Below are positions 1 through 58,264 of a stretch of DNA of 64,000 nucleotides, one piece after another. This DNA comes from Emticicia aquatilis (GTDB lineage Bacteria; Bacteroidota; Bacteroidia; Cytophagales; Spirosomataceae): positions 124,001 through 188,000 of the forward strand of contig NZ_BMKK01000004.1 in the NCBI RefSeq assembly GCF_014644295.1, in the 5' to 3' direction. The notes beneath the pieces are model-generated. The model searched no databases, was not told where the DNA came from, and saw only the letters and a program-made list of their open reading frames with translations. Numbering within the stretch: position 1 is the stretch's first letter; the number at the start of each line of letters is the position of its first letter. A program made the translations under genes and the position numbers.

Positions 1-2
1 GT

Positions 3-158
3 GCTCCAAAACCTACTTACTGTGCACCAAAGCCAACAACCTGTACGCCACCAACAAACCCTTGTACTCCTCCACCTACTTCATGCACGCCTCCTAAAAC
101 TTGTACGCCACCGCCAACAAGCTGTTTGCCTTCGGTAGTGAGTGCAACTGGGTACTGA
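3..158 (+). CDS. Cys/Thr/Pro-rich secreted peptide, C-terminal part (cut by window start)
   Basis: The third frame is open from the window edge to a TGA at 156-158 and encodes 51 residues built from Cys-Thr-Pro-Pro units, with six cysteines. It ends with CLPS followed by a short tail. The units (CTPPKTC, CTPPPTSC) match the downstream gene at 216-473 almost word for word, so this is the 3' end of a third member of the same tandem family. The double-glycine leader lies outside the window and cannot be seen. The function is unknown; secretion by the exporter downstream is inferred from the family. Confidence 0.7.
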   Translation, partial: APKPTYCAPKPTTCTPPTNPCTPPPTSCTPPKTCTPPPTSCLPSVVSATGY

Positions 159-189
159 CATTTGAATATAAATTGAGTGATATAAAACC

Positions 190-205
190 GTGAACCTTTT
201 TGAAA
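190..205 (+). promoter_or_regulatory. Conserved 5' element upstream of peptide gene
   Basis: GTGAACCTTTTTGAAA lies 10-26 bases before the ATG at 216. The same 12-base core, GTGAACCTTTTT, recurs at 489-500 before the next peptide gene at a nearly identical distance. It could be a promoter/leader element or simply duplicated DNA. Confidence 0.4.
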
Positions 206-215
206 CCTTATAAAC

Positions 216-473
216 ATGATAGATATGAAAACTTTTGACCAATTTGAAATCACTTTAAATGAAATGAACAGTATTGAAGGCGGTACATTCTGCTTTGGTT
301 TTAACTTTAGTTTTAACTTCAATTACTGTATTCCAAAAGTTACAACTTGTATTCCAAAAACTACCAGCTGTACACCAACTTGTCCGCCACCACCAACAAC
401 TTGTACACCACCTAAAACTTGTACCCCGCCCCCTACTGGCTGTTTACCATCAGGAGGAACCTCAGGAAATTAG
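216..473 (+). CDS. Double-glycine leader peptide with Cys/Thr/Pro-rich core
   Basis: This 85-residue precursor begins with an FDQFEI leader ending in IEGG at residues 20-23, followed by Thr24. Ile20, Met17 and Ile12 fall at -4, -7 and -12 from the cut, the hydrophobic pattern C39 peptidases recognise. The 62-residue core starts with an alternating aromatic segment (FNFSFNFNY) and then carries repeats such as CIPK, CTPP and CPPPP, with eight cysteines in total. The start at 216 was chosen because it lies at the same distance from the upstream conserved element as the start of the next gene; Met4 at 225 is an alternative. Its neighbours are two paralogues and a C39 ABC exporter. No modification enzyme is nearby, so disulfides are the simplest expectation. 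Whether it is a bacteriocin, signal or surface peptide is unknown. Confidence 0.8.
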   Translation: MIDMKTFDQFEITLNEMNSIEGGTFCFGFNFSFNFNYCIPKVTTCIPKTTSCTPTCPPPPTTCTPPKTCTPPPTGCLPSGGTSGN

Positions 474-488
474 TATAGTAAAATAATC

Positions 489-504
489 GTGAACCTTTTT
501 AAAA
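489..504 (+). promoter_or_regulatory. Conserved 5' element, second copy
   Basis: GTGAACCTTTTTAAAA occurs 12-28 bases before the ATG at 517. It repeats the element at 190-205. The surrounding bases differ, which suggests the core is constrained, although recent duplication is also possible. Confidence 0.4.
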
Positions 505-516
505 ACACTAAAACAA

Positions 517-810
517 ATGAAAAATTTCGACCAATTTGAAATCTCTACAATCAACACAAATAACGTAGAAGGTGGTACTTTTGGATTATTAGGATTATTA
601 GGAACTTGTCTTCCAAAACCAACATGTTCACCAGTTCCAACATGTCCAACGCCAACTCCTCCACCTTGTTATACAGCACCAAAACCAACTTGTCCACCAG
701 TTCCGACTTGTCCGACACCGACAACGAATATTTGCAAACCAACTATTTCGTTTTCATTCTCAATTTCATTTGGTGGTTGCAAACCTGTAACGCCTTGTTT
801 ACCATCGTAA
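517..810 (+). CDS. Double-glycine leader peptide with Cys/Pro-rich core, second complete paralogue
   Basis: This 97-residue precursor shares the FDQFEI leader with its neighbour. The leader ends VEGG at residues 17-20, followed by Thr21 as in the paralogue. The 77-residue core has a Gly/Leu-rich start (GLLGLLG), then two near-copies of a C-P-x-P-T unit (PTCSPVPTCPTPT and PTCPPVPTCPTPT). A Ser/Phe alternating stretch (SFSFSISF) follows, and the protein closes with CLPS. It has nine cysteines. The alternating aromatic strand lies near the C-terminus here but at the N-terminus of the core in the 216-473 paralogue, so the modules have been shuffled. A strong terminator follows, separating the peptide genes from the exporter genes. 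Export and cleavage by the downstream C39 transporter is inferred. Confidence 0.82.
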   Translation: MKNFDQFEISTINTNNVEGGTFGLLGLLGTCLPKPTCSPVPTCPTPTPPPCYTAPKPTCPPVPTCPTPTTNICKPTISFSFSISFGGCKPVTPCLPS

Positions 811-834
811 TTTTTTTTAATAAGTATAGCTATA

Positions 835-867
835 AAAGCACTTTCGTCTTTTGAAAGTGCTTTTTTT
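835..867 (+). terminator. Rho-independent terminator after peptide genes
   Basis: An 11-bp perfect stem (AAAGCACTTTC with GAAAGTGCTTT), a short loop and a run of seven T. It should let the peptide genes be transcribed at a different level from the exporter genes. Confidence 0.85.
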
Positions 868-1050
868 ATTAATATACGTAATCTATTACGATAGAAACTG
901 TATTCATAAATATAACTATCCATTCTACTTTATTGGCTTAGTTTTTGTTTCCGATTGTATTATTGCTGAGGTGAGTAATTTGGCCATAATAAACATCTAT
1001 TATTGGCAACTTTACGTATCTACAATTACTATTAACCAAATTATTACTGA

Positions 1051-3243
1051 GTGAAAAAAGTTTTCCCACATTACCGTCAACTTGATGCAGTAGATTGCGG
1101 CCCTACTTGCCTACGTATGATTTCCAAGTTTTACGGTAAAAATTATAGTTTAGAATTTCTCAGAGACAAAACATTTATTACCCAAACGGGCGTATCCTTA
1201 GCAGGTATTAGTGATGGAGCAAAATCAATCGGTTTTCGTACGAAAGCAGTAAAGATACCATTCAAAATACTGCTCGAAGATGCTCCAAAGCCATGTATTG
1301 TTTTTTGGCGTCAACGTCACTTTGTAGTTGTCTATGAAGTTACGAAAACTCATGTAATGGTAGCAGACCCTGCTCTTGGCCTCGAAAAATATACACATAA
1401 AGATTTCTTAGAAGCATGGCACAATGGGGTTTATCCTGAAGATACTCCCGGCATTGCATTATTGCTTGAACCTACTCAGAAATTCTACGAAAGTGAAGAT
1501 GACAAACGTGAAGGGCTTTCTCTGAATTATTTTTGGGGATATTTACGTCCATACAAGCGTTTCTTTATACAAATTGGGGTTGGAATGCTGCTTGGAGCTA
1601 TTCTATCTTTCATCTTTCCGTTCTTGACCCAAGCAGTTGTTGACCGAGGCATTGAGTATCAGGATATGAATTTTATCTATCTGATACTTTTTGGGCAATT
1701 AGCTTTATTTTTCGGTCAAATGGTATCAAATTTCATACAAAACTGGATTTTGATGCTCATCAGCAATCGGGTGAATATTTCTTTGATTTCGGATTTTTTG
1801 GCCAAACTCATGCGACTACCGATTTCATTTTTTGAAACTCGTAATCAAGGTGATATTCTCCAGCGTATCAATGACCACACAATCATTCAAGATTTTTTGA
1901 CGAGTTCTTCACTGAGCGTTGTATTTTCAGTTTTCAATATGCTGATATTCAGCGTATTACTCGCAATTTTTAGTTTGCCAATTTTCCTTATATTCATCGT
2001 AAGCATGATTCTGTACTTCGCTTGGATTTATGCTTTTCTGAAATATCGTAAACGTATTAATCTTCGCCGATTCGACCGCCTTGCCGATAATCAAAGTGCA
2101 TTAGTGGAATTAGTAACAGGAATTAATGAAATCAAACTTCAAAATATAGAAGACCAAAAGCGTTGGAGATGGGAAAATATTCAGGCAAGGTTATTTAAGA
2201 TAGGTATCGAAGACCTCAAACTTAGCCAATATCAAGAAACTGGGGCATTTTTTATAACGCATTTAAAAGATATTTTGATAACATTTTTGGCCGCTAAAGG
2301 CGTTGTTGAGGGCGATATAACTTTCGGTACGATGCTTTCAATACAAGGAATTGTTGGGCAGGCCAATGCTCCACTCGGCACTCTTTTAAACTTTGTTCAT
2401 TCTGCCCAAGATGCTCGAATTAGCCTTGACCGCTTAAATGAAATTCATAAAAAAGAAGACGAAAATCCAGATGATGTTCCTCGAACAGCTCAATTCTCTT
2501 ATTACCGAGACATCATTTTTCAAAATCTCAGCTTTAGTTACGGAGGCCCATCTTCGCCACAAATTTTAAAAAATATCAACTTAGTTCTATCAGAAGGAAA
2601 AGTTACGGCACTCGTGGGCAGTAGTGGTAGTGGAAAGACAACTCTGATGAAGCTATTACTGAAATTTTATGACCCAACAGGTGGAAATATTTTTATTGGT
2701 AATAGAAAACTGCAAGATTATCATACAGGTTGGTGGCGAAAACAATGTGGTGTAGTGATGCAAGATGGTTTTATTTTTTCGGATACGATTGAGAAAAACA
2801 TTGTCGGCAGCGATGAGATAACAGACCCCGACCGCCTTAATTACGCAGTTTATGCTTCCAATATTTTTGATATTATCGAATCTTCACCGCTTGGTTTAGC
2901 CACGAAAATTGGTGGTGAAGGTAAAGGACTTAGTATCGGTCAGAAACAACGAATTTTGATTGCTCGCTCAATTTACAAAAATCCGCCTTTCTTGTTTTTT
3001 GATGAAGCGACCAGTGCCTTAGATGCCAATAATGAGAAATTTATCATGGAAAATCTCAATCAGTTTTACGCAGGGCGAACTGTTTTGGTTATTGCCCATC
3101 GACTAAGCACTGTCCGTAATGCTGATAATATTGTGGTATTGCATCAAGGCGAAATCGTTGAGGAAGGGAAACACCAAGATTTAGTAGAACGACGAGGATT
3201 TTATTATGAATTAGTTAAGAATCAATTAGAATTGGGCAATTAA
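1051..3243 (+). CDS. Peptidase-containing ABC transporter (C39 bacteriocin-type exporter)
   Basis: This 730-residue protein cleaves double-glycine leaders and exports the peptide core across the inner membrane. Residues 1-130 form a C39 peptidase with Gln10, Cys16 (DCGPTC), His90 and Asp106 all present, so it should be active. A six-helix transmembrane domain follows (about 165-440). The ATPase domain contains Walker A GSSGSGKT, signature LSIGQ, Walker B FLFFDEATSALD and the H-loop VIAHRLSTV. The start is GTG at 1051: an in-frame TGA lies immediately upstream, and the C39 fold begins at once. It lies 10 bases before the TolC-like gene and forms a tripartite secretion operon with it and the HlyD-like gene. 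The upstream GG peptides are the obvious substrates. Confidence 0.95.
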   Translation: MKKVFPHYRQLDAVDCGPTCLRMISKFYGKNYSLEFLRDKTFITQTGVSLAGISDGAKSIGFRTKAVKIPFKILLEDAPKPCIVFWRQRHFVVVYEVTKTHVMVADPALGLEKYTHKDFLEAWHNGVYPEDTPGIALLLEPTQKFYESEDDKREGLSLNYFWGYLRPYKRFFIQIGVGMLLGAILSFIFPFLTQAVVDRGIEYQDMNFIYLILFGQLALFFGQMVSNFIQNWILMLISNRVNISLISDFLAKLMRLPISFFETRNQGDILQRINDHTIIQDFLTSSSLSVVFSVFNMLIFSVLLAIFSLPIFLIFIVSMILYFAWIYAFLKYRKRINLRRFDRLADNQSALVELVTGINEIKLQNIEDQKRWRWENIQARLFKIGIEDLKLSQYQETGAFFITHLKDILITFLAAKGVVEGDITFGTMLSIQGIVGQANAPLGTLLNFVHSAQDARISLDRLNEIHKKEDENPDDVPRTAQFSYYRDIIFQNLSFSYGGPSSPQILKNINLVLSEGKVTALVGSSGSGKTTLMKLLLKFYDPTGGNIFIGNRKLQDYHTGWWRKQCGVVMQDGFIFSDTIEKNIVGSDEITDPDRLNYAVYASNIFDIIESSPLGLATKIGGEGKGLSIGQKQRILIARSIYKNPPFLFFDEATSALDANNEKFIMENLNQFYAGRTVLVIAHRLSTVRNADNIVVLHQGEIVEEGKHQDLVERRGFYYELVKNQLELGN

Positions 3244-3252
3244 TCAGACTGT

Positions 3253-4551
3253 ATGAATAAATTTTTAATCATATTTTTACTCATTTCAAGTAAGCTTTTA
3301 GCACAGTCGCAGCTTTCGCTTGAAGATGCTATTAAGATTGGCTTGCAAAATAATTACAAGGTCCAAATCTCAAAACAACAACTCGAAATTGCCCAACTCA
3401 ACCAACAGGTGGGAGTAACAGAGCGATTTCCGTCTGTAAGTTTTGATGTTGGGCAAAATAACCTATACAGTAATAATAACTCGCCTATCAACTTCGTGAA
3501 GGGTGTTTTTGGTGATAATAGCTTAAATGCTGATTTTAATACCAATTACACTATCTATAATGGGAATCAACGAAATATCAAAAAAACTCAACTCAATTAT
3601 TTAAGTAAAGAAAACGAGCAGCTGCTACGAAATACGAGAGCCAGCGTTATCAAAGACGTGATTGAGTCTTATTACAAAACAATTATTGAAAGAGAAAAAA
3701 GTCTGGTTTTGAAAGAAACAAAAAGTTTATCGAAACTCAGACTCAACGATACCAAACTTCAACTTAATCTTGGGAAAGCCAGTAATTTTGAGGTTTTGAG
3801 GGCGGAAAATTCATTTTTAATCGACTCATCTTCTTACCTACAACAAGAAAATTCATATCAAGCTGCACTCAATAAACTCAATATGGTGCTGGGTTCTGAT
3901 AAATCAAAAAACTATCAATTAACTGATAAGTTAGATGTAGCAAAAGATGAATTCAATTTTGAAGCTCTTAAAAGCAAAATGTTGAGCCAAAACAACGAAA
4001 TTTTAGCCAAACAAGTCGAAACCAATTTGAATAGAAGTAAAATAGAGTTAATCAGAAGCCAGCGAAACCCAACCATTGGCCTAAACAGTAGGCTCGGAAA
4101 AAGCTACTCGACCACTCGATTTGAAGGAAATGCTCCAATTAAAGGTAATGTTTCTAACTTTACTATTGGTTTGCGGGCTTCAATTCCGATTTATAATGGT
4201 GGTGAACTAAAGCGAGGAATCAGTGAGGCTATTATACAAAATAAAATTGGTGAATTGCAACTTGGAGAACTAAAGCAAGAGCTTTCGATTGAATTAACCA
4301 ATGCCTTTACTGCTTATCAGAATCAGTTGAAGGCAGTAAAACTAAACCAGCAATTAGTAAAAAACTTAGGAAATAGCCTGCAATTAGTCAAAGGTCGTTT
4401 AGAAAGTGGCTTTTCAAATGCGTTGGAATATCGAACGATTCAATTAGAGTATGTTCAATCAAACTTTAATTATCTCGAATCAATGTATTCATTAAAAAGT
4501 TACGAAATCACCCTCCGCAAACTCATCGGAGAATTAGATAAAAATTATTGA
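3253..4551 (+). CDS. TolC-family outer membrane efflux protein
   Basis: This 432-residue protein has a cleavable signal peptide (about residues 1-18, ending LLAQ) and two related halves rich in long amphipathic helices with Leu/Gln/Asn heptads. The segments LEDAIKIGLQNN near the N-terminus and GGELKRGI near residue 310 are typical of outer membrane efflux proteins. It would form the outer membrane channel of the type I secretion machine with the C39 ABC exporter 10 bases upstream and the HlyD-like adaptor 7 bases downstream. The length is normal for the family. Confidence 0.92.
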   Translation: MNKFLIIFLLISSKLLAQSQLSLEDAIKIGLQNNYKVQISKQQLEIAQLNQQVGVTERFPSVSFDVGQNNLYSNNNSPINFVKGVFGDNSLNADFNTNYTIYNGNQRNIKKTQLNYLSKENEQLLRNTRASVIKDVIESYYKTIIEREKSLVLKETKSLSKLRLNDTKLQLNLGKASNFEVLRAENSFLIDSSSYLQQENSYQAALNKLNMVLGSDKSKNYQLTDKLDVAKDEFNFEALKSKMLSQNNEILAKQVETNLNRSKIELIRSQRNPTIGLNSRLGKSYSTTRFEGNAPIKGNVSNFTIGLRASIPIYNGGELKRGISEAIIQNKIGELQLGELKQELSIELTNAFTAYQNQLKAVKLNQQLVKNLGNSLQLVKGRLESGFSNALEYRTIQLEYVQSNFNYLESMYSLKSYEITLRKLIGELDKNY

Positions 4552-4558
4552 TTTAGCA

Positions 4559-5935
4559 ATGCCAAACGAAATTCAACATACTAACCCCTCGCCTGTGCGT
4601 GTTTTGAATATGCCACGCCGCAGTGAAGAAGTTGATGAAATATTATCAGAAATGCCAAGCTGGACACTCCGTTGGGGGCTTACTGTCATATTTGGCATTG
4701 TAACAACAATTTTAGTTTTAAGTTATTTTGTAAAATATCCTGATGTTATAAAAGGAAAAATAAACATAACGTCAAATAACCCGCCTGTACCGCTTGTGGC
4801 TCGTACGAGTGGAAATATTGTGCTTATCGTGGCTGATAAATCGCTTGTCAAGGAAAATGAGGTATTAGGTTATCTAAAAAGTGCTACAAAATATGATGAT
4901 ATTCTACAACTAAAACAAAAGCTTAATTTCATAAAAAATAGTTCAGTAAATACTTTAAATGCTGATTCTCTCAGGCAATTTACTGATGATTTACAGTTGG
5001 GTGAACTTCAAGTTCCGTACAATAATTTTCTATTAAAAATCAAAGAAATAGGTTCGCTGGATATTAGAGGACAGAATACAAGTTTACGTAAATCAAGCAT
5101 TAATCAACAGATTGCTGAATACATTCAGATTTCTGAACGCCTTAAACGTCAGGTCCAGCTTTTAGAGAATGAATACAATTTGCAAAAGAAAAACTTTGAC
5201 AATCGTTATAAAGCCTTGCATAAAGCAGGGAGTATTTCTACTGAGCAATTAGAACAAAAGCAAGATGAAGTTTTTCAGAAACTCAAAGCAGTAGAGGCAG
5301 CAAAATCAAGTTACGACGAAAACCAAAATAGAATAATTACGCTCCAAAGTCAAAAAGTAGAAGTTGATTTCGAGCAAAAAGACCGTCAACTCAATTCAAA
5401 TAATTTATTGCTTGATGCTTACACAAATCTACTTAACCAACTCAACATCTGGGAGCAAAGATATTTACTCAAAGCAACCATTGCTGGCAAAGTGAATTAT
5501 TTGAACTTCATCAAACAAAACTCCTACATTAACGAAAACCAAGAAATAGCTAATATTATTCCGCCAACGGGCAATATAAACAATGCACTTTCAAGCTCTT
5601 ATGTAGGAGAATTATTTTTGGAATCATCGGGTTCGGGCAAAATCGCCGAAGGACAGGATGTAAATATTGTTTTAGATAATTTTAGTAAAAAGGAGTTTGG
5701 AATCTTGAAAGGGAAAGTGGCATCCATTGCTGATGTTTCATCGACAATCACTTCAACTACTGGAAGTCAAAGCGTTTATAAAGTCTATGTAAATCTGCCT
5801 AATGGATTAACCACAACCTCAAAGAAAAAACTTTCTTTCCGTTATGGAATGCAAGGAAATGCCGAAGTAATTACCAAAGACATCAGTATCTTAGGCAGAA
5901 TTTTCGACACTATCCGAACTGCATTTGAACAATAA
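4559..5935 (+). CDS. HlyD-family periplasmic adaptor of the peptide exporter
   Basis: This 458-residue membrane fusion protein has a short cytoplasmic N-terminus and one transmembrane helix at about residues 39-61. A split lipoyl/biotinyl-like domain (PLVARTSGNIV and later KATIAGKVNYL) is separated by a long coiled coil of about 170 residues. A beta-barrel C-terminal part contains the segment GMQGNAEVI, which resembles the G-M-x-G-x-A-x-V end of HlyD proteins. It would bridge the ABC exporter and the TolC-like channel. It is the last gene of the three-gene operon, and its stop codon directly abuts the stop of the convergent DUF486 gene. Confidence 0.92.
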   Translation: MPNEIQHTNPSPVRVLNMPRRSEEVDEILSEMPSWTLRWGLTVIFGIVTTILVLSYFVKYPDVIKGKINITSNNPPVPLVARTSGNIVLIVADKSLVKENEVLGYLKSATKYDDILQLKQKLNFIKNSSVNTLNADSLRQFTDDLQLGELQVPYNNFLLKIKEIGSLDIRGQNTSLRKSSINQQIAEYIQISERLKRQVQLLENEYNLQKKNFDNRYKALHKAGSISTEQLEQKQDEVFQKLKAVEAAKSSYDENQNRIITLQSQKVEVDFEQKDRQLNSNNLLLDAYTNLLNQLNIWEQRYLLKATIAGKVNYLNFIKQNSYINENQEIANIIPPTGNINNALSSSYVGELFLESSGSGKIAEGQDVNIVLDNFSKKEFGILKGKVASIADVSSTITSTTGSQSVYKVYVNLPNGLTTTSKKKLSFRYGMQGNAEVITKDISILGRIFDTIRTAFEQ

Positions 5936-6262
5936 TTATTTCTTAAAAACTACCCAAACAGCCAAAAATATTAGTCCAAAACCGACCAAATAATTCCATT
6001 TAAGTGGTTCTTTTAGATACAATACAGCAAAAATAACAAATACTACAAGCGTGATTGCTTCTTGAATAGTTTTAAGCTGAAAAGCATTAAATTGACCATA
6101 CCCAAGCCTATTGGCAGGAACCATAAAGACATACTCAAAGAAGGCAATTCCCCAGCTTATCAGAATAGCTTTCCATATGGGCAGGTCTGGTCTTTTCAAA
6201 TGTCCATACCAAGCAAAAGTCATAAAAGTGTTGGAAATAATAAGTAATAAGATGGTTCGCAT
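5936..6262 (-). CDS. DUF486 family small membrane protein (DMT-like)
   Basis: A 108-residue protein with four predicted transmembrane helices. It carries the features of the DUF486 (COG3169) family: a TFAWYGHLK segment after helix 1, FFEYVFMVPANR in the middle and a KEPLKWNYLVGF segment before the last helix. The family resembles half of a drug/metabolite transporter but has no established substrate. It converges on the HlyD-like gene with zero bases between the stops, so it is not part of the peptide secretion operon. Confidence 0.85.
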   Translation of the reverse strand: MRTILLLIISNTFMTFAWYGHLKRPDLPIWKAILISWGIAFFEYVFMVPANRLGYGQFNAFQLKTIQEAITLVVFVIFAVLYLKEPLKWNYLVGFGLIFLAVWVVFKK

Positions 6263-6273
6263 AAAATATTTTT

Positions 6274-6385
6274 GAGTGAGTGAATGAGTGAATGAGTGAA
6301 TTTTTGTTATTTTGTAAATACAAATTAAAACAAAAATGACTGAATTTTGAGTTTTTGTAAATTTTTACTCATTCGTTCACTCATC
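6274..6385. repeat. Short-word tandem repeat with inverted partner
   Basis: The 8-base word GAATGAGT (with GAGT variants) is repeated at 6274-6300. An inverted version (ACTCATTCGTTCACTCATCC) follows at 6367-6385, so the region can fold into a long imperfect hairpin. The intergenic gap lies between the divergent DUF486 gene and the prephenate dehydrogenase gene. Confidence 0.7.
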
Positions 6386-6420
6386 CAAAACGGGCAGCGT
6401 TCCGCTTCAAATATTGGTTT

Positions 6421-7677
6421 ATGAAAATAGGTATCATTGGTTTGGGAGATATGGGCAAGATGTTTGCCCGAATATGGGCAAAAGCAGGATTCGATGTGTA
6501 TGGATGTGACCTTCCACAAAACCGTGAAAAATTAGAACAAGAACTCAGTGACTTTGGGATTAATATCCTTGCCGATGGCATCGCGATTTCTCGCTTATGC
6601 GACTTTATTCTTTATTCAGTAGAAGCCGAAAACATTGAAAAAGTTGCAGCTCAATGCGGCCCATCAACCAAATATGGTGCAATAGTAGCTGGACAAACCT
6701 CAGTCAAAACGCCTGAAATAGCAGCGTTTGAAAAATTTCTACCCAAAGATGCTCAGATTGTTACTTGCCATGCACTTTATGGGCCAGCCGTAAATCCCGT
6801 TGGACAAACATTGGTGCTTGTCAATCACAGGGCAAGCAATGAAGCATTTATACAAGCACAAACCGTACTTAGTGCCATTGGTTCAACTATTCATCAGCTT
6901 GAAGATTATCATGCTCATGACCGCATGATGGCTGATATTCAAGCAGTTACACACATCGGCTTTGAGAGCATCGGTACTGCATTTATGCACCGAAAGGTAT
7001 ATCCATGGGAAAACACACTCCATCCGAATGGTCTTGATAATGTTAAATTATTAATGACCTTGCGAATTTACAGCTATAAATTTCACGTTTATTCGGGTTT
7101 AGCCCTTCAAAATCCTTATGCTAAACGAGACGTTCGTAGCTATGCTAAAGCTGAAAGCGAACTTTTTGAATTGATGATTGAAGAAAACGAGAAGAAATTT
7201 AGAAAAAGGATATACGCAGCAAGAGATAGTGTTTTTAAAGATAAAGGTGGTGATTTGATGCTTGATGACAAAATCATGAGCGAATTTAGTTTAAATCAAG
7301 ATTTTGAGCATAAACCTAACTCTCATCTAAGCCTTTTGGCAATGGTAGATACATGGCACAAACTCGGTACTAATCCGTACAAAAGTTTGATTTGTCAAAC
7401 GCCTCCATTTAAGTTACGTGTAGGCATGGCCGAATATCTTTTCATGAACGAAAATCTACTCGAAGAAACCATCAAAGCCGCTCTATTCGACAAGAGTATT
7501 AGAGGTGAAGATTTAGCTTTTCACACTGCCGTTCATGAATGGGCAAATATTGTTGAAATGGGCGACAAAGAAAGTTATAGAAAGCATTTTGAAGCAACTA
7601 AAGTTTATCTATCCGACCGCCTTGAAGAAGGAAGAACAAAAAGTAGTTTATTGATTGCCAAGCTACAAAACATTTAA
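6421..7677 (+). CDS. Prephenate dehydrogenase, fungal Tyr1-like
   Basis: This 418-residue protein would oxidatively decarboxylate prephenate to 4-hydroxyphenylpyruvate in tyrosine synthesis. The NAD(P) Rossmann motif GIIGLGDMG is at residues 4-12. The following segments line up, from memory, along the whole length of yeast Tyr1: YSVEAENI, AIVAGQTSVK, PEIAAFEKFLPKDAQIVT, QAVTHIGF, YPWE, LRIYSYKFHVYSGLA, PNSHLSLLAMVDTW and AEYLFM. The protein is much longer than ordinary bacterial TyrA (about 280-370 residues) and carries no chorismate mutase or ACT domain that I can see. It stands alone, without other aromatic-pathway genes. The start is ATG at 6421, and the Rossmann motif follows at once. Confidence 0.85.
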   Translation: MKIGIIGLGDMGKMFARIWAKAGFDVYGCDLPQNREKLEQELSDFGINILADGIAISRLCDFILYSVEAENIEKVAAQCGPSTKYGAIVAGQTSVKTPEIAAFEKFLPKDAQIVTCHALYGPAVNPVGQTLVLVNHRASNEAFIQAQTVLSAIGSTIHQLEDYHAHDRMMADIQAVTHIGFESIGTAFMHRKVYPWENTLHPNGLDNVKLLMTLRIYSYKFHVYSGLALQNPYAKRDVRSYAKAESELFELMIEENEKKFRKRIYAARDSVFKDKGGDLMLDDKIMSEFSLNQDFEHKPNSHLSLLAMVDTWHKLGTNPYKSLICQTPPFKLRVGMAEYLFMNENLLEETIKAALFDKSIRGEDLAFHTAVHEWANIVEMGDKESYRKHFEATKVYLSDRLEEGRTKSSLLIAKLQNI

Positions 7678-17719: not shown

Positions 17720-18742
17720 TTAACCCCATATTTTAGTGCCTTCTGTGCAGTTTTTACACATTTCAATTTCTGCACGAGCATTGGTGAGCGACTTTCTAAA
17801 TTGTTGATAAGGTTCACTTTGCCAAACTTCCTTGAATGTTTTTTGCTTCAAATCTCCCATTCTATACTCGGCATCTTTATCGAAACAACATGGCACTACA
17901 AGGCCATCCCAGGTTATTACGCACGAATGCCACATTTTCCAGCAGTGGTCGAGTAATTTATTTTTTATTTTATATGTTCCGTTACTTTGCTGCTCATATC
18001 GAGCATATTTATCAATCGTTGGAATCAACGAAGAGCCATTTTCATAATCATAAATTTGTGCTGTTTTAAAAGCAACTTCATCAACACCTAATTCTTTTGC
18101 CATTTTTTTGACATCCTCAAGCTGGTGTTCATTAGGCTTTACCACCAAAAATTGAAATATGATGTGTGGTGTCTTTGATTTTAATTCTCGTTTCCAATGT
18201 ACAATCTTCTTAGTACCTTCTATCACTTTATTCAAGTTTCCGCCTACTCTGTATTGCTCATAAACCTCTTGTGTTGTGCCATCTATCGAGATTATCATTC
18301 GGTCTAAACCAGACTCTATGGTTTGTTTGGCCGAAATATCGGTCAAATAATGAGCATTTGTCGATGTAGCCGTATAAATTTTCTTATTTGAAGCATATTT
18401 CACCAAATCTAAAAATTTTGGATGCAAGTATGGTTCTCCTTGAAAATAAAAAATCAAATATAGTAGTGTATCGGAGAGTTCGTCAATGGTTTGTTTAAAA
18501 AGTTTTTCTGGAAGCATACCCGTTGGGCGGGTAAAACTTCGCAAACCACTTGGGCATTCGGGACAACGTAGGTTACAAGAAGTTGTTGGTTCAATCGAAA
18601 TCGCAACGGGTAAGCCTCGATGAATCGTACGACCAGTAAGTTTTGATTCAAGATAACTACCTACATTTTTCGAGGCATTCCAAGCACGAGGCCAAGTAAC
18701 CTTTGAAAAAAAATTGATACCATCTCGAAGATTTCTATTCAT
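17720..18742 (-). CDS. Radical SAM/SPASM domain protein, function unknown
   Basis: This 340-residue protein has the radical SAM cluster motif CNLRCPEC (CX3CX2C) at about residues 52-59, a GEPYLHP motif and a C-terminal SPASM region with cysteines in HCWKMWHSCVI, VPCCFDKDAEYRMGD and CKNC. SPASM proteins usually modify peptides, or act as AdoMet-dependent enzymes on glycans and nucleotides. No small precursor peptide gene is next to it, and the double-glycine peptides lie 17 kb away, so a link to them is only a possibility. It could be co-transcribed with the oxidoreductase 13 bases downstream. Confidence 0.85.
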   Translation of the reverse strand: MNRNLRDGINFFSKVTWPRAWNASKNVGSYLESKLTGRTIHRGLPVAISIEPTTSCNLRCPECPSGLRSFTRPTGMLPEKLFKQTIDELSDTLLYLIFYFQGEPYLHPKFLDLVKYASNKKIYTATSTNAHYLTDISAKQTIESGLDRMIISIDGTTQEVYEQYRVGGNLNKVIEGTKKIVHWKRELKSKTPHIIFQFLVVKPNEHQLEDVKKMAKELGVDEVAFKTAQIYDYENGSSLIPTIDKYARYEQQSNGTYKIKNKLLDHCWKMWHSCVITWDGLVVPCCFDKDAEYRMGDLKQKTFKEVWQSEPYQQFRKSLTNARAEIEMCKNCTEGTKIWG

Positions 18743-50294: not shown

Positions 50295-52805
50295 ATGGAA
50301 ATGAACCATAAATATATAGTAACGGGGATGTCATGCAATGGATGTCGGACAAAGGTTGAAAAAGCTCTCAATGAAGTAGAAGGGATTTCGGCAGTTGTAA
50401 CCTTAGACCCTCCAGTAGCAAGCATTACGATGGAGAAGCACATTCCTACCGAACAATTGAAAAAATCGCTATCACTTATAGGTAATTATACAATTGATGA
50501 TACAAATGAAGCTGAAATCAATGCTTTCAAAAAAATAAAAGTAGAAAAAAAGATTGTGAAGCCATCGAGTGATAATAGCAACAGTAAATATTATTGTCCG
50601 ATGCACTGTGAAGGAGATAAACTCTATGACAAAGCAGGTGATTGTCCGGTTTGTGGAATGGATTTAGTACCACAGGTGAGTATTAATCAAAAAGCAGAAT
50701 ATACTTGCCCAATGCACCCTGAAGTAATCAAAAATGAAGCGGGTGACTGTCCTATTTGTGGAATGGATTTGGTAATCAAAGCTACAAACAATGATGGAGA
50801 AAGCAAGACTTATAGTGACCTATTAAGGAAAATGAAGATAGCTATTGCCTTTACAACGCCCATTTTCATAATAGCGATGACCGATATGATTCCCAATAAT
50901 CCATTGATGAAAGTAATGAGACATAACGAATGGAATTGGCTTCAATTTATCCTCAGCTTACCAGTTGTTTTTTATGCTTGTTGGATATTTTTTGTACGAG
51001 CATGGAAATCAATCGTTTCTTTGAACCTTAATATGTTTACCTTAATTGGTATTGGTTCGGGCGTTGCATATCTGTTCAGTATAATCGGATTGTTGTTTCC
51101 AAGTGTTTTTCCCCACGAATTTAAAAATGAAATGGGCGTAGTTCATCTATATTTTGAGGCAACGACAGTAATTCTGACTTTAGTATTGCTTGGACAATTA
51201 TTAGAAGCAAAAGCACATAGCCAAACAAGTGGGGCTATTAAGGAATTACTAAAATTGACTCCAACCGAAACAACAATTCTAATAAATGGCATTGGTAGTA
51301 AAATATCAATTAGTGATGTGAAGAAAGGTGATTTTTTGCGAATCAAACCTGGTGAGAAAGTCCCAGTTGATGGAAAAATTGTAACTGGAGAAAGTACAAT
51401 TGATGAATCAATGATTACGGGCGAGCCTATTCCAGTTGATAAAAAAGTTGGCGATTCTGTAAGCTCAGGTACAATCAATGGCAACAAAACATTTGTAATG
51501 GTTGCCGAGAAAATAGGTTCTGAAACTCTACTTTCACAAATCATTCAGATGGTAAATGATGCGAGCCGCTCTAAAGCTCCTATTCAAAAATTAGCCGATA
51601 GTGTTGCCAAGTATTTCGTTCCGATTGTTGTAAGTGTTGCTGTAATTACATTTTTTATTTGGGCAAAATTCGGCCCTGACCCAGCATTGGTTTATGGTTT
51701 TATCAATGCAATTGCAGTTTTAATTATTGCTTGTCCGTGTGCTTTGGGTCTGGCAACACCCATGTCGGTCATGGTTGGAGTTGGCAAAGGAGCTTCATCG
51801 GGAGTTTTAATAAAAAATGCTGAAGCTTTAGAAAACATGAATAAAATAAATGTATTGATAATCGACAAAACTGGAACAATTACGGAGGGAAAACCATCGG
51901 TGGATAAAGTGTTTGCATTAAAAGGGGCAGATTCAGATAAGTTATTGCAAAGCATTGCTTCGGTTAATCAGTATAGTGAACATCCTTTGGCACAAGCGGT
52001 TGTAAACTACGCCAAAGAAAAAAATATTACTTTGACACCAACAGAAGGTTTTGAAGCAATTGCAGGTAAAGGAGTAATAGGCACTTTAAATGACAAAAAA
52101 ATAGCAATTGGAAATATAGCTCTTATGCAACAAATAAAAGCGATTGTTTCTGTTGACTTAGAAAACACCGTCACTGCCGAGCAGAAACTTGGAAAAACGG
52201 TTTCTTTTATTGCGATTGACGGCGAGGTTGCAGGTTATGTAGCGATTACAGATGCCATCAAAGCAACAAGCAAGGACGCCATTAAAGAACTAATGAACCA
52301 AGGTATTGAAGTAGTTATGCTCACCGGAGACAATGAAAATACCGCTCATGCTGTTGCGGCTGAACTCAATTTAAGTGCTTATAAAGCAAACTGTTTACCC
52401 GAAGACAAATTAAAAGAAATTAAAAGCTTGCAAGCTCAAGGTAAAATTGTGGCGATGGCTGGTGATGGCATAAACGATGCTCCTGCTTTGGTTCAAGCTA
52501 ATATTGGCATTGCGATGGGTACAGGAACAGATGTAGCGATTGAAAGTGCCAAAATAACCTTGGTCAAAGGCGATTTACAAGGTATTGTGAAAGCTAAAAA
52601 ATTGAGTCATGCCGTAATGAATAATATCAAGCAAAACTTATTCTTTGCCTTTATCTACAATACCGTCGGGATTCCGATTGCTGCGGGTGTTTTATATCCA
52701 GTATTTGGTATATTATTATCACCAATGTTGGCAGCACTGGCCATGAGTTTTAGTTCGGTTTCAGTTATTGGTAATGCTTTAAGATTAAGAAGTATTAAAC
52801 TTTAA
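50295..52805 (+). CDS. copA: Copper-exporting P-type ATPase (Cu+ type, P1B)
   Basis: This 836-residue pump exports Cu+ from the cytoplasm. It has an N-terminal HMA with CNGC (Cys14, Cys17), then two heavy-metal-binding domains (CPMHCEGD...CPVCGMD at 101-124 and CPMHPEVI...CPICGMD at 138-158). Eight transmembrane helices include the CPC motif IACPCALGLATP. The phosphorylation site DKTGTIT, the SEHPLA nucleotide-binding His-Pro and GDGINDAPALVQA hinge are intact. Start ATG at 50295 with Met3 as alternative. It follows the HMBD protein gene after a hairpin and is 8 bases before the PepSY gene. Confidence 0.95.
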   Translation: MEMNHKYIVTGMSCNGCRTKVEKALNEVEGISAVVTLDPPVASITMEKHIPTEQLKKSLSLIGNYTIDDTNEAEINAFKKIKVEKKIVKPSSDNSNSKYYCPMHCEGDKLYDKAGDCPVCGMDLVPQVSINQKAEYTCPMHPEVIKNEAGDCPICGMDLVIKATNNDGESKTYSDLLRKMKIAIAFTTPIFIIAMTDMIPNNPLMKVMRHNEWNWLQFILSLPVVFYACWIFFVRAWKSIVSLNLNMFTLIGIGSGVAYLFSIIGLLFPSVFPHEFKNEMGVVHLYFEATTVILTLVLLGQLLEAKAHSQTSGAIKELLKLTPTETTILINGIGSKISISDVKKGDFLRIKPGEKVPVDGKIVTGESTIDESMITGEPIPVDKKVGDSVSSGTINGNKTFVMVAEKIGSETLLSQIIQMVNDASRSKAPIQKLADSVAKYFVPIVVSVAVITFFIWAKFGPDPALVYGFINAIAVLIIACPCALGLATPMSVMVGVGKGASSGVLIKNAEALENMNKINVLIIDKTGTITEGKPSVDKVFALKGADSDKLLQSIASVNQYSEHPLAQAVVNYAKEKNITLTPTEGFEAIAGKGVIGTLNDKKIAIGNIALMQQIKAIVSVDLENTVTAEQKLGKTVSFIAIDGEVAGYVAITDAIKATSKDAIKELMNQGIEVVMLTGDNENTAHAVAAELNLSAYKANCLPEDKLKEIKSLQAQGKIVAMAGDGINDAPALVQANIGIAMGTGTDVAIESAKITLVKGDLQGIVKAKKLSHAVMNNIKQNLFFAFIYNTVGIPIAAGVLYPVFGILLSPMLAALAMSFSSVSVIGNALRLRSIKL

Positions 52806-52813
52806 ATGATAGT

Positions 52814-53572
52814 ATGAAGAAAGGCGTATTTCAGCGAAAAATCAGAAAAACTCATCGTTGGTTAGGTGTAATCTTAGGAATTCAATTCTTTTTATGGACA
52901 ATCGGCGGACTTTATTTTAGTTGGTCAGATATGGATGAAGTTCATGGCGACCACCAAAAAGCCCACATTCACCCCATTGGAGCAGATATTGACTTTGTAA
53001 ACCCTAAAGACATCATTCAACAAATTAAACTGAAAGATTCGGTAAACTTCCTTTTTGATATTCGTCTGATACAAATTCTGAATCGTCCTTTTTATCAAAT
53101 TACTTATGCAAAAGAACACGATAGAGGTAAAAAAATACAACTGGCAAATGCCAAAACTGGTGAGTTACGACCAGCACTAAGCAAAGAAGAAGCGATTGAA
53201 ATTGCAAAAAAAAGTTTTCTGAATGATGCACCAGCACCAGTAAAGTCTGTTGAGTATCTGACCAACACCAATGGGCATCATGAATACCGAGAGCAGCCAC
53301 TTCCAGCTTATGCAGTCACATTTTCGAACCCAACGAATACAACGGTTTATGTAGCGAACGAACTCGGTACAGTACAAAAGTTTAGAAATAGTAAATGGAG
53401 AATCTTTGATTTTTTATGGATGCTCCACACGATGGATTATCAAAGCCGAGATAATATCTCGAATTGGTTATTGAGAGCATTTTCAGTATTTGGAATCATA
53501 ACGATAATTAGTGGATTTACACTGTTTTTTGTAAGTCAAAAATCAAATTCAAAACAAAATAAAACAACATGA
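52814..53572 (+). CDS. PepSY-domain membrane protein
   Basis: This 252-residue protein has a helix near residues 15-35 (TIGGLYFSW at its end), a central PepSY domain (KEEAIEIAKKSFLNDAPAPVKSV and LPAYAVTF) and a second helix near residues 220-240. It belongs to the PepSY-associated membrane family, often next to iron or copper transport genes. Its start is 8 bases after copA and its end overlaps the DUF2911 gene by four bases, so these are co-translated. Function is unknown; a role in reduction or sensing at the membrane is a guess. Confidence 0.82.
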   Translation: MKKGVFQRKIRKTHRWLGVILGIQFFLWTIGGLYFSWSDMDEVHGDHQKAHIHPIGADIDFVNPKDIIQQIKLKDSVNFLFDIRLIQILNRPFYQITYAKEHDRGKKIQLANAKTGELRPALSKEEAIEIAKKSFLNDAPAPVKSVEYLTNTNGHHEYREQPLPAYAVTFSNPTNTTVYVANELGTVQKFRNSKWRIFDFLWMLHTMDYQSRDNISNWLLRAFSVFGIITIISGFTLFFVSQKSNSKQNKTT

Positions 53573-54129
53573 AAAAAATATCAATCTTAACCATATTTCT
53601 ATTTTCGACAATTATTTCTTTTGCTCAACACGAAAACCATCAACCAAAAACTGATACCAGCAAGGTAGCAGCAAAGCCCAAAAGTCCGAAAATGGTTACG
53701 ATGGAAATGATTGGCGACAATCATGTTCATATTGAGTATGGCTCACCAAGTGTTCGTGGCAGAAATATATGGAATGGCTTAGTTGCTTATAATCAAGTAT
53801 GGTCAACTGGTGCTCATAATGCTACATGGATTGATTTTTCTAAAGATGTTATTATTGAAGGTAAACTAATTCCAAAAGGTAAATACGGTTTCTTTACTAT
53901 TCCAAACAAAGACAAATGGGTACTCATTTTGAGCAAAACGTGGAATATGCACTTGGCAGATGATTATAAACAAGAAAATGATGCTATCAGAGTAGAAGTA
54001 GTTCCTATAAAAAATAAAAACCTCACAGAGGCTTTAACCTATGAAGTGATAGCAAAAAACAAAAACAAAGGACTAATCAAAGTCACATGGGAATACCTAA
54101 GTGTTTCTCTTGAATTTGAAAATAAATGA
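53569..54129 (+). CDS. DUF2911 family secreted protein
   Basis: This 186-residue protein starts with a signal peptide (MKKISILTIFLFSTIISFAQ) followed by a His/Lys stretch. The DUF2911 core is HVHIEYGSPSVRGRNIWNGL, VWSTGAHNATWIDFS, EGKLIPKGKYGFFTIP and WVLILSKTW. DUF2911 is widespread in Bacteroidota and has no known function. Its start overlaps the PepSY gene by four bases. Confidence 0.88.
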   Translation: MKKISILTIFLFSTIISFAQHENHQPKTDTSKVAAKPKSPKMVTMEMIGDNHVHIEYGSPSVRGRNIWNGLVAYNQVWSTGAHNATWIDFSKDVIIEGKLIPKGKYGFFTIPNKDKWVLILSKTWNMHLADDYKQENDAIRVEVVPIKNKNLTEALTYEVIAKNKNKGLIKVTWEYLSVSLEFENK

Positions 54130-54142
54130 TTAATAGTTGCAA

Positions 54143-54154
54143 ATTAGGCCTAAT
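54143..54154. promoter_or_regulatory. 12-bp perfect palindrome upstream of the YncE-like gene
   Basis: ATTAGGCCTAAT lies in the 39-base gap before the ATG at 54169. It is a possible operator or a chance match. Confidence 0.3.
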
Positions 54155-54168
54155 AAACAAGCACTAAG

Positions 54169-55224
54169 ATGAAAAAAACAGTAGTTTTTCTATTAATGAT
54201 GAGTGTAATTTTGTCTTGTATGCCAAACGAAGCTACACCTGAATTAAATATCGCTTTTCCTGCGGCGTATGTTATCAACGGAGAAAGTACAACAATTTCG
54301 GTCATTAATCTAAACACAGACGAAACAAATACAATTAAACTAAATCAATCTGTGAGTAATCATTCTACTCATAATATGACCAACGATATTGTATTTCCAC
54401 ACCATATTTATCTTTCGCCCGATGGCACAAAATTAAGTATCGGTGTTCCGGGTGTTGATTTAACCGAAGGACATTCAGGTACACACGAAACAAAGGGAAA
54501 AATCGTAATTATTGATGCTAAAACAGGTAAAGTACTATCACAGACGGAATTGTCTAAACCAAATCATAATTCAATATTCTCGCCTGATGGGTCTGAAATT
54601 TGGACTACTTCAATGGAGCATGAAGGCAAAACTTTAGTATTTGATGCAGCATCAATGTCACTAAAAAATACTATTTCTGTTGGTCCAGAACCAGCCGAAG
54701 TAACATTTTCATCTGATGGAAAATATGCTTTTACAGCTAATGGAGGTAGTAATTCAATTTCAGTGATTGACATAACCTCAAAAAAAGTTATCAAAACAAT
54801 AGCCGTTGGAGCAGAGCCAGTGGGTGCATGGACTGGAACAGATGGAAATATGTATGTCGATAATGAAATCGGTCAGACGGTAAGTGTCATTAATGTCAAT
54901 CAATTGGAGGTGATTGAAACTGTTGATTTAGGTTTTACACCTGGTTATGTTGCTTATAATCAGTCATTAAACGAAATGTGGGTAAGTAATTCTGGTCAAA
55001 GCTTTGTTTACTATTTTAAGAGAGAAAATAATAAATGGAAAAAAGCAGGCAGCATACAGACAGGTTTAGACGCTCATGCAATTGCTTTCTCGAAAGATGA
55101 CAAAATTGCTTACGTCACCAACCAAAAGAACCTTACAGTTTCGATAATCAATACTACTAATCACACTAAAATCAAAGACGTTCAGGTTGGGCAAAAACCT
55201 AACGGAATTGCTTTAAAATATTGA
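54169..55224 (+). CDS. YncE-like beta-propeller lipoprotein, first copy
   Basis: This 351-residue lipoprotein has a lipobox at Cys17 (VILSCMPNE). A seven-bladed YVTN-type propeller follows with blade motifs such as AYVINGESTTISVINLN, GKYAFTANGGSNSISVIDI and IAYVTNQKNLTVSIINTTN. Two histidine-rich spots, FPHHIYLSPDG and EGHSGTHETKG, recur in the second copy at 62065-63138. Propellers of this kind are often secreted; some sit in metal loci. The His clusters could bind metal, but this is not shown. Confidence 0.82.
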   Translation: MKKTVVFLLMMSVILSCMPNEATPELNIAFPAAYVINGESTTISVINLNTDETNTIKLNQSVSNHSTHNMTNDIVFPHHIYLSPDGTKLSIGVPGVDLTEGHSGTHETKGKIVIIDAKTGKVLSQTELSKPNHNSIFSPDGSEIWTTSMEHEGKTLVFDAASMSLKNTISVGPEPAEVTFSSDGKYAFTANGGSNSISVIDITSKKVIKTIAVGAEPVGAWTGTDGNMYVDNEIGQTVSVINVNQLEVIETVDLGFTPGYVAYNQSLNEMWVSNSGQSFVYYFKRENNKWKKAGSIQTGLDAHAIAFSKDDKIAYVTNQKNLTVSIINTTNHTKIKDVQVGQKPNGIALKY

Positions 55225-55327
55225 AACATTACCTCATCAGAAAATAATTTATACTAAAATAAATACAAAGACATGATGATTACCATTTATCTGGGTGTTT
55301 TTGATTTTTATAATATATTATTTGAAG

Positions 55328-57667
55328 ATGAGAAATGAAATTTCTTATATGGATATTCTAAAAAATGTTGGGCAGAGTTCCGCTTCTAAAAAAGTGTTGC
55401 CAATAATTGCATTGCTTTTGTTTATATCAAAACCATCTTATAGCCAAAAAGTGGTTCGATATGACCTTTATGTAAAAGATACAACTGTGTTATTTGGAGC
55501 TAAACCTAAACGTGCAATTGCCGTAAATGGCCAAATACCAATGCCTACCCTAACATTTATGGAAGGCGATACAGCAGAGATTTACGTACATAATGAATTA
55601 AATGAGGAAACATCTTTGCACTGGCATGGTTTATTTCTGCCAAACAGATATGACGGTGTACCCAATCTTACACAAATGCCAATTAAGCCACATACAACTC
55701 ATTTATATCGTTTCCCAATTATTCAGCATGGCACGCACTGGTATCACAGCCATACTGGCCTGCAAGAACAAATCGGAATGTATGGCTCAATGATTTTGAA
55801 CAAAAAGACATCCGATTCAACTTTTAGGACAGGAATTGATGATTTACCAACTATACCGATTATTTTAAGTGAATGGACAGATATGAACCCCAAAAACGTT
55901 CATCGGATGCTTCATAATGCCACAGATTGGTTCGCTATTCAGAAAGGTGCAACTCAAAGTTATGGAGAAGCAATTAAACAGGGTTATTTGAAAACTAAAG
56001 TAAATAACGAATGGAAGCGAATGAATGCAATGGATGTAAGTGATGTCTATTACAATACATTTTTGATTAATGGCAGAAAAGAAAGCCAACTTACGCAATT
56101 TAAAGTCGGAGATAAAGTTCGACTACGAATTTCAAACGGTGGTGCATCAACTTATTTTTGGTTAAAATATGCAGGCGGAAAAATAACGGTTGTAGCGAAT
56201 GACGGTAATGATATTGAACCCGTTGAAGTTGATAGATTAATTATTGCTGTATCCGAAACTTACGATGTTATACTATCGATTCCTGAAGACAAAAAATCCT
56301 TTGAATTTTTGGCAACTTCCGAAGACCGTACAAAATCAACATCATTATTTTTAGGTGAGGGTGAAAAGATAAAAGCGAAACCAATGCCTAAACTCAAATA
56401 TTTTGAGGGAATGAAAATGATGAATGGCATGATGAAAATGAATGGTGATTTAGATGATATGGGTATGCAGATGTCGTTAAATCAGATGGATATGAATGTA
56501 GTAATGTATTCTGAAATAACGGGTGAACCTGAAAAACCTAAACACACCATGAAAAACATGGAAATGGGCAAAAAGAAAGCACATGACATGGAAAGTATGA
56601 CAACCGAAGATACACAATATAATAGCAATGAATTATCGGATATTATTACTTTAAATTATTCAATGCTTAAAGCGACCTCTGTAACAAAACTTCCGAAAGA
56701 AGCTCCTGTGAAAGAATTACGCTTTGAGTTGAGTGGAAATATGAACCGATATGTTTGGAGTTTAGATAATAAAGTTGTCTCGGAAGCCGATAAAATTCTT
56801 ATTAAGAAAGGTGAAACAGTAAGAATAATTCTATACAATGGTTCAATGATGCGGCACCCAATGCACCTACACGGACATGATTTTAGGGTGTTGAACGGTC
56901 AGGGGGATTTTTCTCCTCTAAAAAATGTCATTGATATTATGCCAATGGAAACCGATACTTTAGAGTTTAGTGCAAATATAGAAGGAGATTGGTTTTTTCA
57001 TTGTCATATTCTTTATCACATGATGGCTGGTATGGGAAGAGTTTTTAGTTATGAAAATCAGCAACCAAATCCTGAAATTCAAAATCCTAAATTGGCACAA
57101 AGAAAATTGTATGCTGATGATAGGCAATTTCATTTGATGGCGGAAAATGATGTGGCAACCAATGGCAATGATGGTGAATTAATGCTTCAAAATACCCGAT
57201 GGAGTATCGGTACTGAATGGCGACTGGGCTATAACGACCATCATGGCTACGAAACTGAAACTCATTTGGGAAGGTATATTGGAAAAATGCAGTGGCTAAT
57301 GCCTTTTATAGGCTTCGATTGGCGTTATCGTCAGATTAATCATGTAATGATGGATAAGTCGATTGAAACAAATCTCTTTGGACAGAAAAGCACCAAAGAT
57401 AAAAGAGCAGTCCTAAGTTTGGGTGTAAATTATACATTACCAATGCTCGTTACCGCACAGGCTGAAGTTTTTACCGACGGCAATTTTCGTTTACAATTAG
57501 AAAGAAAAGATATTCCTCTTTCAAAGCGATTACGTATGAATATGATGATAAATACAGATAAAGAATATATGGCTGGTTTGCGGTATATTTTGAATAAAAA
57601 TATTGGCATTTCGACTCATTATGACAGCGATATGGGCTTTGGGCTTGGATTTATGTTAAATTATTAA
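55328..57667 (+). CDS. Multicopper oxidase with CopB-like C-terminal domain
   Basis: This protein is 779 residues from ATG 55328. A GTG 33 bases upstream gives a weaker start, and ATG 55349 is another option. After a signal-like helix (VLPIIALLLFIS) the oxidase has the copper motifs HWHGLFLP, HWYHSHTGLQEQIGMYG, HPMHLHGHDFRV and HCHILYHMMAGMGR. A Met-rich region (MKMMNGMMKMNGDLDDMGMQ) lies near residue 360, as in PcoA/CopA oxidases. The last 170 residues look like a beta-barrel of the CopB kind (WRLGYNDHHGYETETHLG, GLRYILNKNIGIS). It would oxidise Cu(I) to Cu(II) in the periplasm and may also sit in the outer membrane. Confidence 0.88.
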   Translation: MRNEISYMDILKNVGQSSASKKVLPIIALLLFISKPSYSQKVVRYDLYVKDTTVLFGAKPKRAIAVNGQIPMPTLTFMEGDTAEIYVHNELNEETSLHWHGLFLPNRYDGVPNLTQMPIKPHTTHLYRFPIIQHGTHWYHSHTGLQEQIGMYGSMILNKKTSDSTFRTGIDDLPTIPIILSEWTDMNPKNVHRMLHNATDWFAIQKGATQSYGEAIKQGYLKTKVNNEWKRMNAMDVSDVYYNTFLINGRKESQLTQFKVGDKVRLRISNGGASTYFWLKYAGGKITVVANDGNDIEPVEVDRLIIAVSETYDVILSIPEDKKSFEFLATSEDRTKSTSLFLGEGEKIKAKPMPKLKYFEGMKMMNGMMKMNGDLDDMGMQMSLNQMDMNVVMYSEITGEPEKPKHTMKNMEMGKKKAHDMESMTTEDTQYNSNELSDIITLNYSMLKATSVTKLPKEAPVKELRFELSGNMNRYVWSLDNKVVSEADKILIKKGETVRIILYNGSMMRHPMHLHGHDFRVLNGQGDFSPLKNVIDIMPMETDTLEFSANIEGDWFFHCHILYHMMAGMGRVFSYENQQPNPEIQNPKLAQRKLYADDRQFHLMAENDVATNGNDGELMLQNTRWSIGTEWRLGYNDHHGYETETHLGRYIGKMQWLMPFIGFDWRYRQINHVMMDKSIETNLFGQKSTKDKRAVLSLGVNYTLPMLVTAQAEVFTDGNFRLQLERKDIPLSKRLRMNMMINTDKEYMAGLRYILNKNIGISTHYDSDMGFGLGFMLNY

Positions 57668-57725
57668 AGATATTAAATCAAAAAAATACACTCATCAACA
57701 AAATTTTTCACAAAAATATAAAAAA

Positions 57726-58247: not shown

Positions 58248-58264
58248 CTAAATAAATCAACCAA

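Follow-up and report, generated by a model that had tools for sequence, protein, structure and literature searches.

Precursor genes and exporter at the locus

The 64,000-nucleotide stretch of the Emticicia aquatilis genome analyzed here (the window; G000:C4:124001-188000, from a 6.75-Mb draft, where G, C and L numbers denote genomes, contigs and fetched loci) opens with a cassette of three small genes, A, B and C. They encode putative secreted peptides with double-glycine (GG) leaders and are followed by the genes of a tripartite exporter. A fourth member of the family, D, lies on another contig, next to genes for a glycosyltransferase (GT) and a 250-residue protein (d250) that are candidates for its modification. 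The features at the start of the window are as follows.

1..158, plus strand: precursor gene A, 3' part, with the last 51 codons and the stop inside the window (open reading frame (ORF) reading and comparison with G106)
190..198, plus strand: GTGAACCTT, 5' of B; the nine bases recur before C (489-497) and before D (contig C2)
225..473, plus strand: precursor gene B, GG leader, 8 core Cys; 82 aa from MKTFDQFE, or 85 aa if the ATG at 216 is used
517..810, plus strand: precursor gene C, GG leader, 9 Cys; 97 aa
834..864, plus strand: terminator-like hairpin of 13 pairs, between C and the exporter genes, 3' of the precursor cassette
1051..3243, plus strand: C39 peptidase ABC transporter, 730 aa, GTG start; PF03412, PF00664 and PF00005 above cut-off
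3253..4551, plus strand: TolC-like outer-membrane protein (OEP), 432 aa; PF02321 above cut-off
4559..5935, plus strand: HlyD-like periplasmic adaptor, 458 aa; TIGR01843 with E 9.8e-25 and 87.4 bits, below the cut-off of 208.65

The whole of gene A spans C4:123904-124158 (84 aa) and starts 97 bases 5' of the window, with its leader outside. The leaders are MKNFDQFELSSTEMNNIDGG in A, MKTFDQFEITLNEMNSIEGG in B and MKNFDQFEISTINTNNVEGG in C. A preliminary description of this DNA had reported cores with 8-9 cysteines, which agrees with the counts of 8, 8 and 9 in A, B and C; its wording of almost pure Cys, Thr and Pro was too strong, with these residues making up 37 of 64 positions in A, 35 of 62 in B and 43 of 77 in C (56–58%). 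The three cores contain no Asp or Glu, and the cysteines of A follow a near-heptad spacing (10,7,7,7,7,6,7). The profile search of the precursors proposed in the same description found no family above cut-off in either Pfam or NCBIfam.

In C39-exported GG leaders, position −4 is hydrophobic. This position is Ile in A and B and Val in C and D, while position −12 is Leu in A, Ile in B and C, and Phe in D. At position −7, A and B have Met and D has Ala, yet C has Thr; taken as a whole, the leaders of A–D are of the C39 type. Hydrophobic residues at −7 and −12 are described for the GG peptides of C39 peptidase-containing ABC transporters (PCATs) in PMC12457901.

Between G000 and G106, a second genome of the genus, dN/dS values (NG86) are 0.13/0.98 for A, 0.10/0.61 for B, 0.14/0.60 for C, 0.03/0.49 for D and 0.013/1.20 for the C39 gene. 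The precursors are therefore real genes, as had been proposed for three paralogous small genes with GG leaders, that change faster than the exporter while keeping most cysteines. Judged by these sequence comparisons, A–C are under purifying selection between the two genomes. The sequence GTGAACCTT lies shortly 5' of the start codons of B, C and D in both genomes; the window contains three matches (0.58 expected), of which the third (17809-17817) is unrelated. Another candidate common motif, TTGAGTGA, was dropped, being near background (5 matches vs 2.7 expected). Terminator-like hairpins in positions 1-6600 number four vs 4.1 expected, the other three having 5–7 pairs.

Extension upstream, also proposed earlier as a way of finding further copies, recovered the rest of A and a short ORF with a related leader (L006:15594-15773, outside the window). 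In this ORF the GG is replaced by GR (SR in G106) and the Cys-Pro core is absent; its length is equal in the two genomes, and we read it, from sequence, as a decayed or re-used paralogue. The further copy, D, is on contig C2.

The exporter downstream of the precursors corresponds to what had been described, with the HlyD-like component recognized below cut-off. Residues Q10, C16, H90 and D106 of the C39 domain agree with the catalytic set of C39 peptidases. Each of the seven genomes that carry the family has a C39 exporter no more than 3.4 kb from a family member, such that leader-core homologues near C39 exporters, whose lack in related genomes had been named as evidence against the proposal, are present. 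The exporter sits in the D locus in five genomes (L031-L035), and with A–C instead in G000 and G106. The HlyD and OEP proteins of L031-L035 have only 20–31% identity to those of the window (51–53% for C39), and the window exporter therefore represents a different branch. G000 has two C39 matches, the second in a lanthipeptide cluster. In G102, which belongs to the same genus, one C39 locus (L106:10985-13627) carries a tandem repeat in which a 43-aa ORF is present in three identical copies with a spacing of ∼1255 bases.

A fourth precursor gene linked to GT and d250

A search with C identified D (L007:9878-10123, minus strand, 81 aa). Upstream of D on the same strand are the genes for d250 (250 aa) and GT (332 aa), which overlap by four bases in G000; an overlap is present in five of six genomes. 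The order GT, d250, D on one strand is kept in all six; in L032, d250 and D are separated by an OEP gene. C and D have in common the core start GGTFGLL and an ISFSFS segment. The earlier statement that no modification enzyme is present thus holds at the A–C locus and fails for the system as a whole, as D is located behind GT and d250 in six of the seven family genomes. No LanM, YcaO or radical SAM gene was recognized beside the precursors, in agreement with the preliminary description.

A Crp/Fnr-type gene (PF00027) is convergent with D in all seven genomes. In Lacihabitans sp. CCS-44 (G150) it is seen as two ORFs (L033:9580-10145), representing either a broken gene or a sequencing error. Extra Cys-rich GG precursors with fewer Pro and Thr lie by the C39 exporter at L033:6004-6270 and L035:6086-6382, and lack the upstream box described below for D.

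Distribution across genomes

A profile of the four precursors matched 11 of 222 genomes of the family at a threshold of E 0.01, of which seven were kept after inspection. The matches in G056, G140, G208 and G211 (E 0.0017-0.0083) were dropped; they lack a GG leader, and their frames contain internal stops or overlap other long frames. d250 was found in six of the 222 genomes, all among the seven precursor carriers, and GT in the same six (11 genomes tested). A–C were found in G000 and G106, both of which retain GT and d250.

We also scanned 84,980 species genomes with a sequence pattern, which gave 455 matches and five d250 loci: an Emticicia metagenome-assembled genome (MAG; G106), a Cytophagaceae MAG (G108), Lacihabitans sp. 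CCS-44, Lacihabitans soyangensis (G143) and a LEAD1 MAG (G147). The scan can miss loci in which its two short patterns do not occur, and it may not have covered G000. In a class sample of 395 genomes, G000 gave the sole strong d250 match; three weak matches (G351, G408 and G557; E 2.7e-4 to 6.3e-4) were discarded. An order sample, searched with 13 precursors, returned three of 390 genomes, namely G000, G147 and G150, all known carriers. The class and order samples each left out some known carriers. The weak match in G408, which belongs to another family, is a 165-aa ORF (L037) that could be a distant stand-alone SpaB_C-like fragment (FMFFKNSIRGENVSIVF), hinting at a wider group of proteins with the RG motif.

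Upstream region of D

The sequence TTGA[TC]N4ATCAA, an FNR-type box, is located at −126 to −149 upstream of D in all seven genomes, with the −7 element of Bacteroidetes, TAnnTTTG, after it. The distance from the box center to the nearest downstream TAnnTTTG is 46–47 in five genomes and 56–57 in two, i.e. one helical turn apart. The 269,665 bases of collected loci contain eight such boxes, seven of them 5' of D, and the window contains none (1.05 expected); the number of boxes is thus unremarkable, whereas their placing is remarkable. The motif was picked after inspection of the upstream regions, and the genomes are related, so that this conservation is not independent evidence. No box precedes A–C, the short ORF or the C39 gene, nor is there one before the two extra precursors in G147 and G150. 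The Crp/Fnr-type neighbor of D contains a KETLSR stretch resembling the recognition helix of FNR. D is probably controlled by this adjoining regulator.

Structural and sequence analysis of d250 and GT

None of the six d250 members matches a Pfam model with an E-value below 0.07, and none matches PF14028; the G000 copy has no NCBIfam match. An AlphaFold2 model built on the six sequences has a pLDDT of 83 and a pTM of 0.84. With E-values of 1.7e-4 to 7.1e-3, the Foldseek top ten for this model in the PDB consists of TbtD and PbtD (thiopeptide pyridine synthases), a [4+2] aza-cyclase, and MadB, a class I dehydratase, the next match being TsrL at E 0.16; a viral structure library gave nothing at E 0.001. 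The predicted structure thus loosely resembles the LanB-elimination/pyridine-synthase (SpaB_C) type at the level of the fold. R46-G47 is among the residues invariant in the six members.

GT has PF00535 and PF02709 above cut-off and can be assigned to the GT2/GT7C glycosyltransferases. Its model matches many GT-A enzymes, including 6p61, TarS, TarP and K4CP. The D-S/T sequon, a general O-glycosylation signal of the Bacteroidota, is missing here, since the cores contain no Asp.

Lanthipeptide genes and the radical SAM gene

Three genomes that hold D, GT and d250, G143, G147 and G150 (99% complete), have no match to PF04738, PF14028 or PF05147 (Lant_dehydr_N, Lant_dehydr_C and LANC_like searches), and therefore no LanB partner in trans at the sensitivity of these models. 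Lanthipeptide chemistry was rejected for this Lacihabitans group, where the sequence data make it unlikely. In the other three genomes with D, GT and d250, no LanB or LanC gene is near D within the fetched loci; elsewhere, G000 and G108 have two LanB pieces each, and G106 (81% complete) has one N-terminal piece. G000 also has three LANC_like matches, and G039, a precursor carrier, also has LanB. On contig C11 of G000 (L056/L057; G000:C11:14000-50000) lies a region of class I lanthipeptide genes, which encodes four precursors of the NF038153 type, two proteins of the LanB type, LANC_like proteins and a C39 exporter of its own, as well as a radical SAM/SPASM protein nearest to YhhB/FxsB, below cut-off.

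Within the window, one radical SAM gene was found, ∼11.8 kb downstream of the peptide and exporter genes.

17720-18742, minus strand: radical SAM/SPASM gene, adjoining an oxidoreductase-like gene

Among the 25 matches listed for it, no NCBIfam model is above cut-off, the best being TIGR04317 (E 6.3e-38; 130.8 bits vs 380). Nine fetched family loci contain no CxxxCxxC radical-SAM-type gene beyond short chance-like frames, and we therefore draw no link between the window gene and the peptides. A copper-type region at window positions 50295-59695 includes a heavy-metal P-type ATPase and two multicopper-oxidase-like proteins (ORF translations read by eye).

Discussion

We cautiously favor the view that these genes define a rare family of Emticicia and Lacihabitans (Spirosomataceae-type), similar to ribosomally synthesized and post-translationally modified peptides (RiPPs), with C39-dependent export and modification of D by the GT-d250 pair. 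Before export, D, perhaps together with C and its sisters, would be modified by this translationally linked pair: GT would glycosylate Thr/Ser or Cys residues in the core, and d250 would serve as the substrate-binding partner of GT or as a second enzyme. The C39 domain of the type I exporter would cut the GG leader while exporting the Cys/Pro/Thr-rich core; such export and cleavage are likely, given the protein families and gene linkage. In Emticicia, with A–C and the exporter on one contig and D and the enzymes on another, the exporter, and perhaps the enzymes, would act in trans. Outside the cell, the cores would probably form disulfides. We infer modification of D from the co-occurrence in all six d250 genomes, the gene overlap and the predicted fold; it is most likely glycosylation. 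A–C may be modified in trans or may be plain disulfide peptides, C being the most D-like.

Several observations weigh against this view. A and B diverge from D directly after the GG and do not contain the ISFSFS segment, so that any action of the enzymes on them would be conjectural. In G039 (99% complete), a D-type precursor and the exporter are present, while GT and d250 are both missing; the enzymes are therefore not indispensable. Our search pattern found no Cys/Pro-rich GG peptide at six further C39 loci in the genus (L104-L109), so that this type of C39 exporter as such is not tied to the peptides. Confidence in the GT model is low (pLDDT 70, pTM 0.56). The top-ten fold matches of d250 are loose, with TM-scores of 0.40–0.55 and root-mean-square deviations of 6.5–12.2 Å. 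When the d250 profile was compared by hhalign with six LanB C-terminal domains (taken from G000, G108 and G039), the match did not reach significance (probability 0.1%); it aligned only FFFFFDSERGYHLKVF with FFIRYRDTDEHLRLRF plus a few residues more, and was outscored by the unrelated GT profile (2.7%); a relationship is therefore claimed only at the fold level. d250 lacks the motifs FIRYxDxxxH(L/I)RxR and H(M/L)xxNR, which are shared by all six LanB domains, so that its chemistry is not readable from the sequence, although any activity is probably not glutamate elimination.

That the peptides are unmodified, disulfide-rich secreted products, with the C39 exporter cutting and exporting A–C and with GT and d250 serving D alone, is a less probable alternative that we nevertheless take seriously. 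No homologue of GT or d250 was detected by tblastn in the window, nor do the ORFs in the ∼7 kb preceding the window show an apparent one, and the retention of precursor and exporter by G039 without the enzymes fits this alternative. However, core motifs of D also occur in C, and both genomes with A–C retain the two enzymes.

We consider it somewhat less likely again that the products are surface or matrix peptides, i.e. glycosylated, disulfide-linked, mucin-like chains rich in Pro, Thr and Cys that assemble extracellularly through a strand of alternating Ser and Phe. The cores without acidic residues, the near-heptad cysteines of A, the ISFSFS-type segments of D and C, and the comparable SF-rich stretches that the extra L033 and L035 precursors contain would be in keeping with this role, but bacteriocins likewise have such a peptide length and C39 export.

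Doubtful, in our view, is the further proposal that the genes represent a new RiPP class, in which GT replaces the LanB glutamylation domain and its sugar primes Thr/Ser (or Cys) for a stand-alone SpaB_C-fold enzyme acting there by elimination, transfer or another new reaction, yielding exported Cys/Pro-rich peptides with D under FNR-type control. PMC7268733 reports split LanBs in class I clusters, as well as extra elimination-domain proteins beside full LanBs, for which it suggests other chemistry. Lanthipeptide-like products, with d250 as the eliminating part of a split LanB converting Thr/Ser to dehydrobutyrine/dehydroalanine for rings with Cys, are very improbable: the fold match to MadB and pyridine synthases, the Thr/Ser- and Cys-rich cores, the LanB and LANC_like matches of G000 with the LanB of G108 and G039, and these published precedents speak for them, whereas three genomes keep D, GT and d250 without any such match, d250 lacks the LanB motifs, and the lanthipeptide precursors of G000 have another leader family, NF038153.

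Returning to the favored reading, a C39-exported family with GT-d250 modification of D, close parallels include the glycocins. Sublancin, glycocin F and thermoglycocin also combine a Cys-rich leader-core precursor with a peptide glycosyltransferase and a C39 transporter (PMC12457901). They differ in that GT here is not recognized as a SunS-family member (TIGR04195 matched one of six, with E 0.012), and in that the present cores have 7–9 cysteines in Pro/Thr-rich repeats, accompanied by a partner of predicted SpaB_C fold and a tripartite exporter. In addition, the thg cluster has two thioredoxin-like genes, while the WCxxC thioredoxin motif is absent here from frames of at least 80 aa in the window and nine loci. 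d250 resembles stand-alone LanB elimination-domain proteins, TbtD and PbtD in predicted fold, but lacks their conserved motifs and a significant profile match, and occurs in three genomes without a LanB match.

Class I lanthipeptides of Bacteroidetes share the phylum, the GG leader and C39 export (PMC7268733), and one such cluster is that on contig C11; however, their leaders are of the LxLxKx5L/NF038153 type, compared to MKxFDxF...GGTF here, and LanB and LanC are unlinked to the A–D family in the fetched loci. The RiPP clusters BGC3 and BGC9 are similar in having a precursor and an accessory glycosyltransferase, to which BGC9 adds a C39 transporter, but are from Bacteroidales, and PMC10352776 reports no LanB in the genomes it screened. 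The TIGR04149 radical SAM-modified GG peptides of Bacteroidetes are approached by the leader of A (E 0.0026; 17.6 bits, cut-off 25), the one of 13 family members to match, below cut-off; the family thus falls outside TIGR04149. The literature searched, as far as its text was available, contained no description of the A–D/GT/d250 gene set.

The gene set extends the known C39-exported RiPP-like systems, and its status as a new class hinges on the chemistry of GT and d250. It escapes the family models used: no model exceeds its cut-off in the precursors, neither Pfam nor NCBIfam names d250, and the enzymes are on a different contig from most of the precursors. If the GT-d250 pair does modify the peptide, a LanB-elimination-like fold would have been recruited to glycopeptide biosynthesis without glutamylation.

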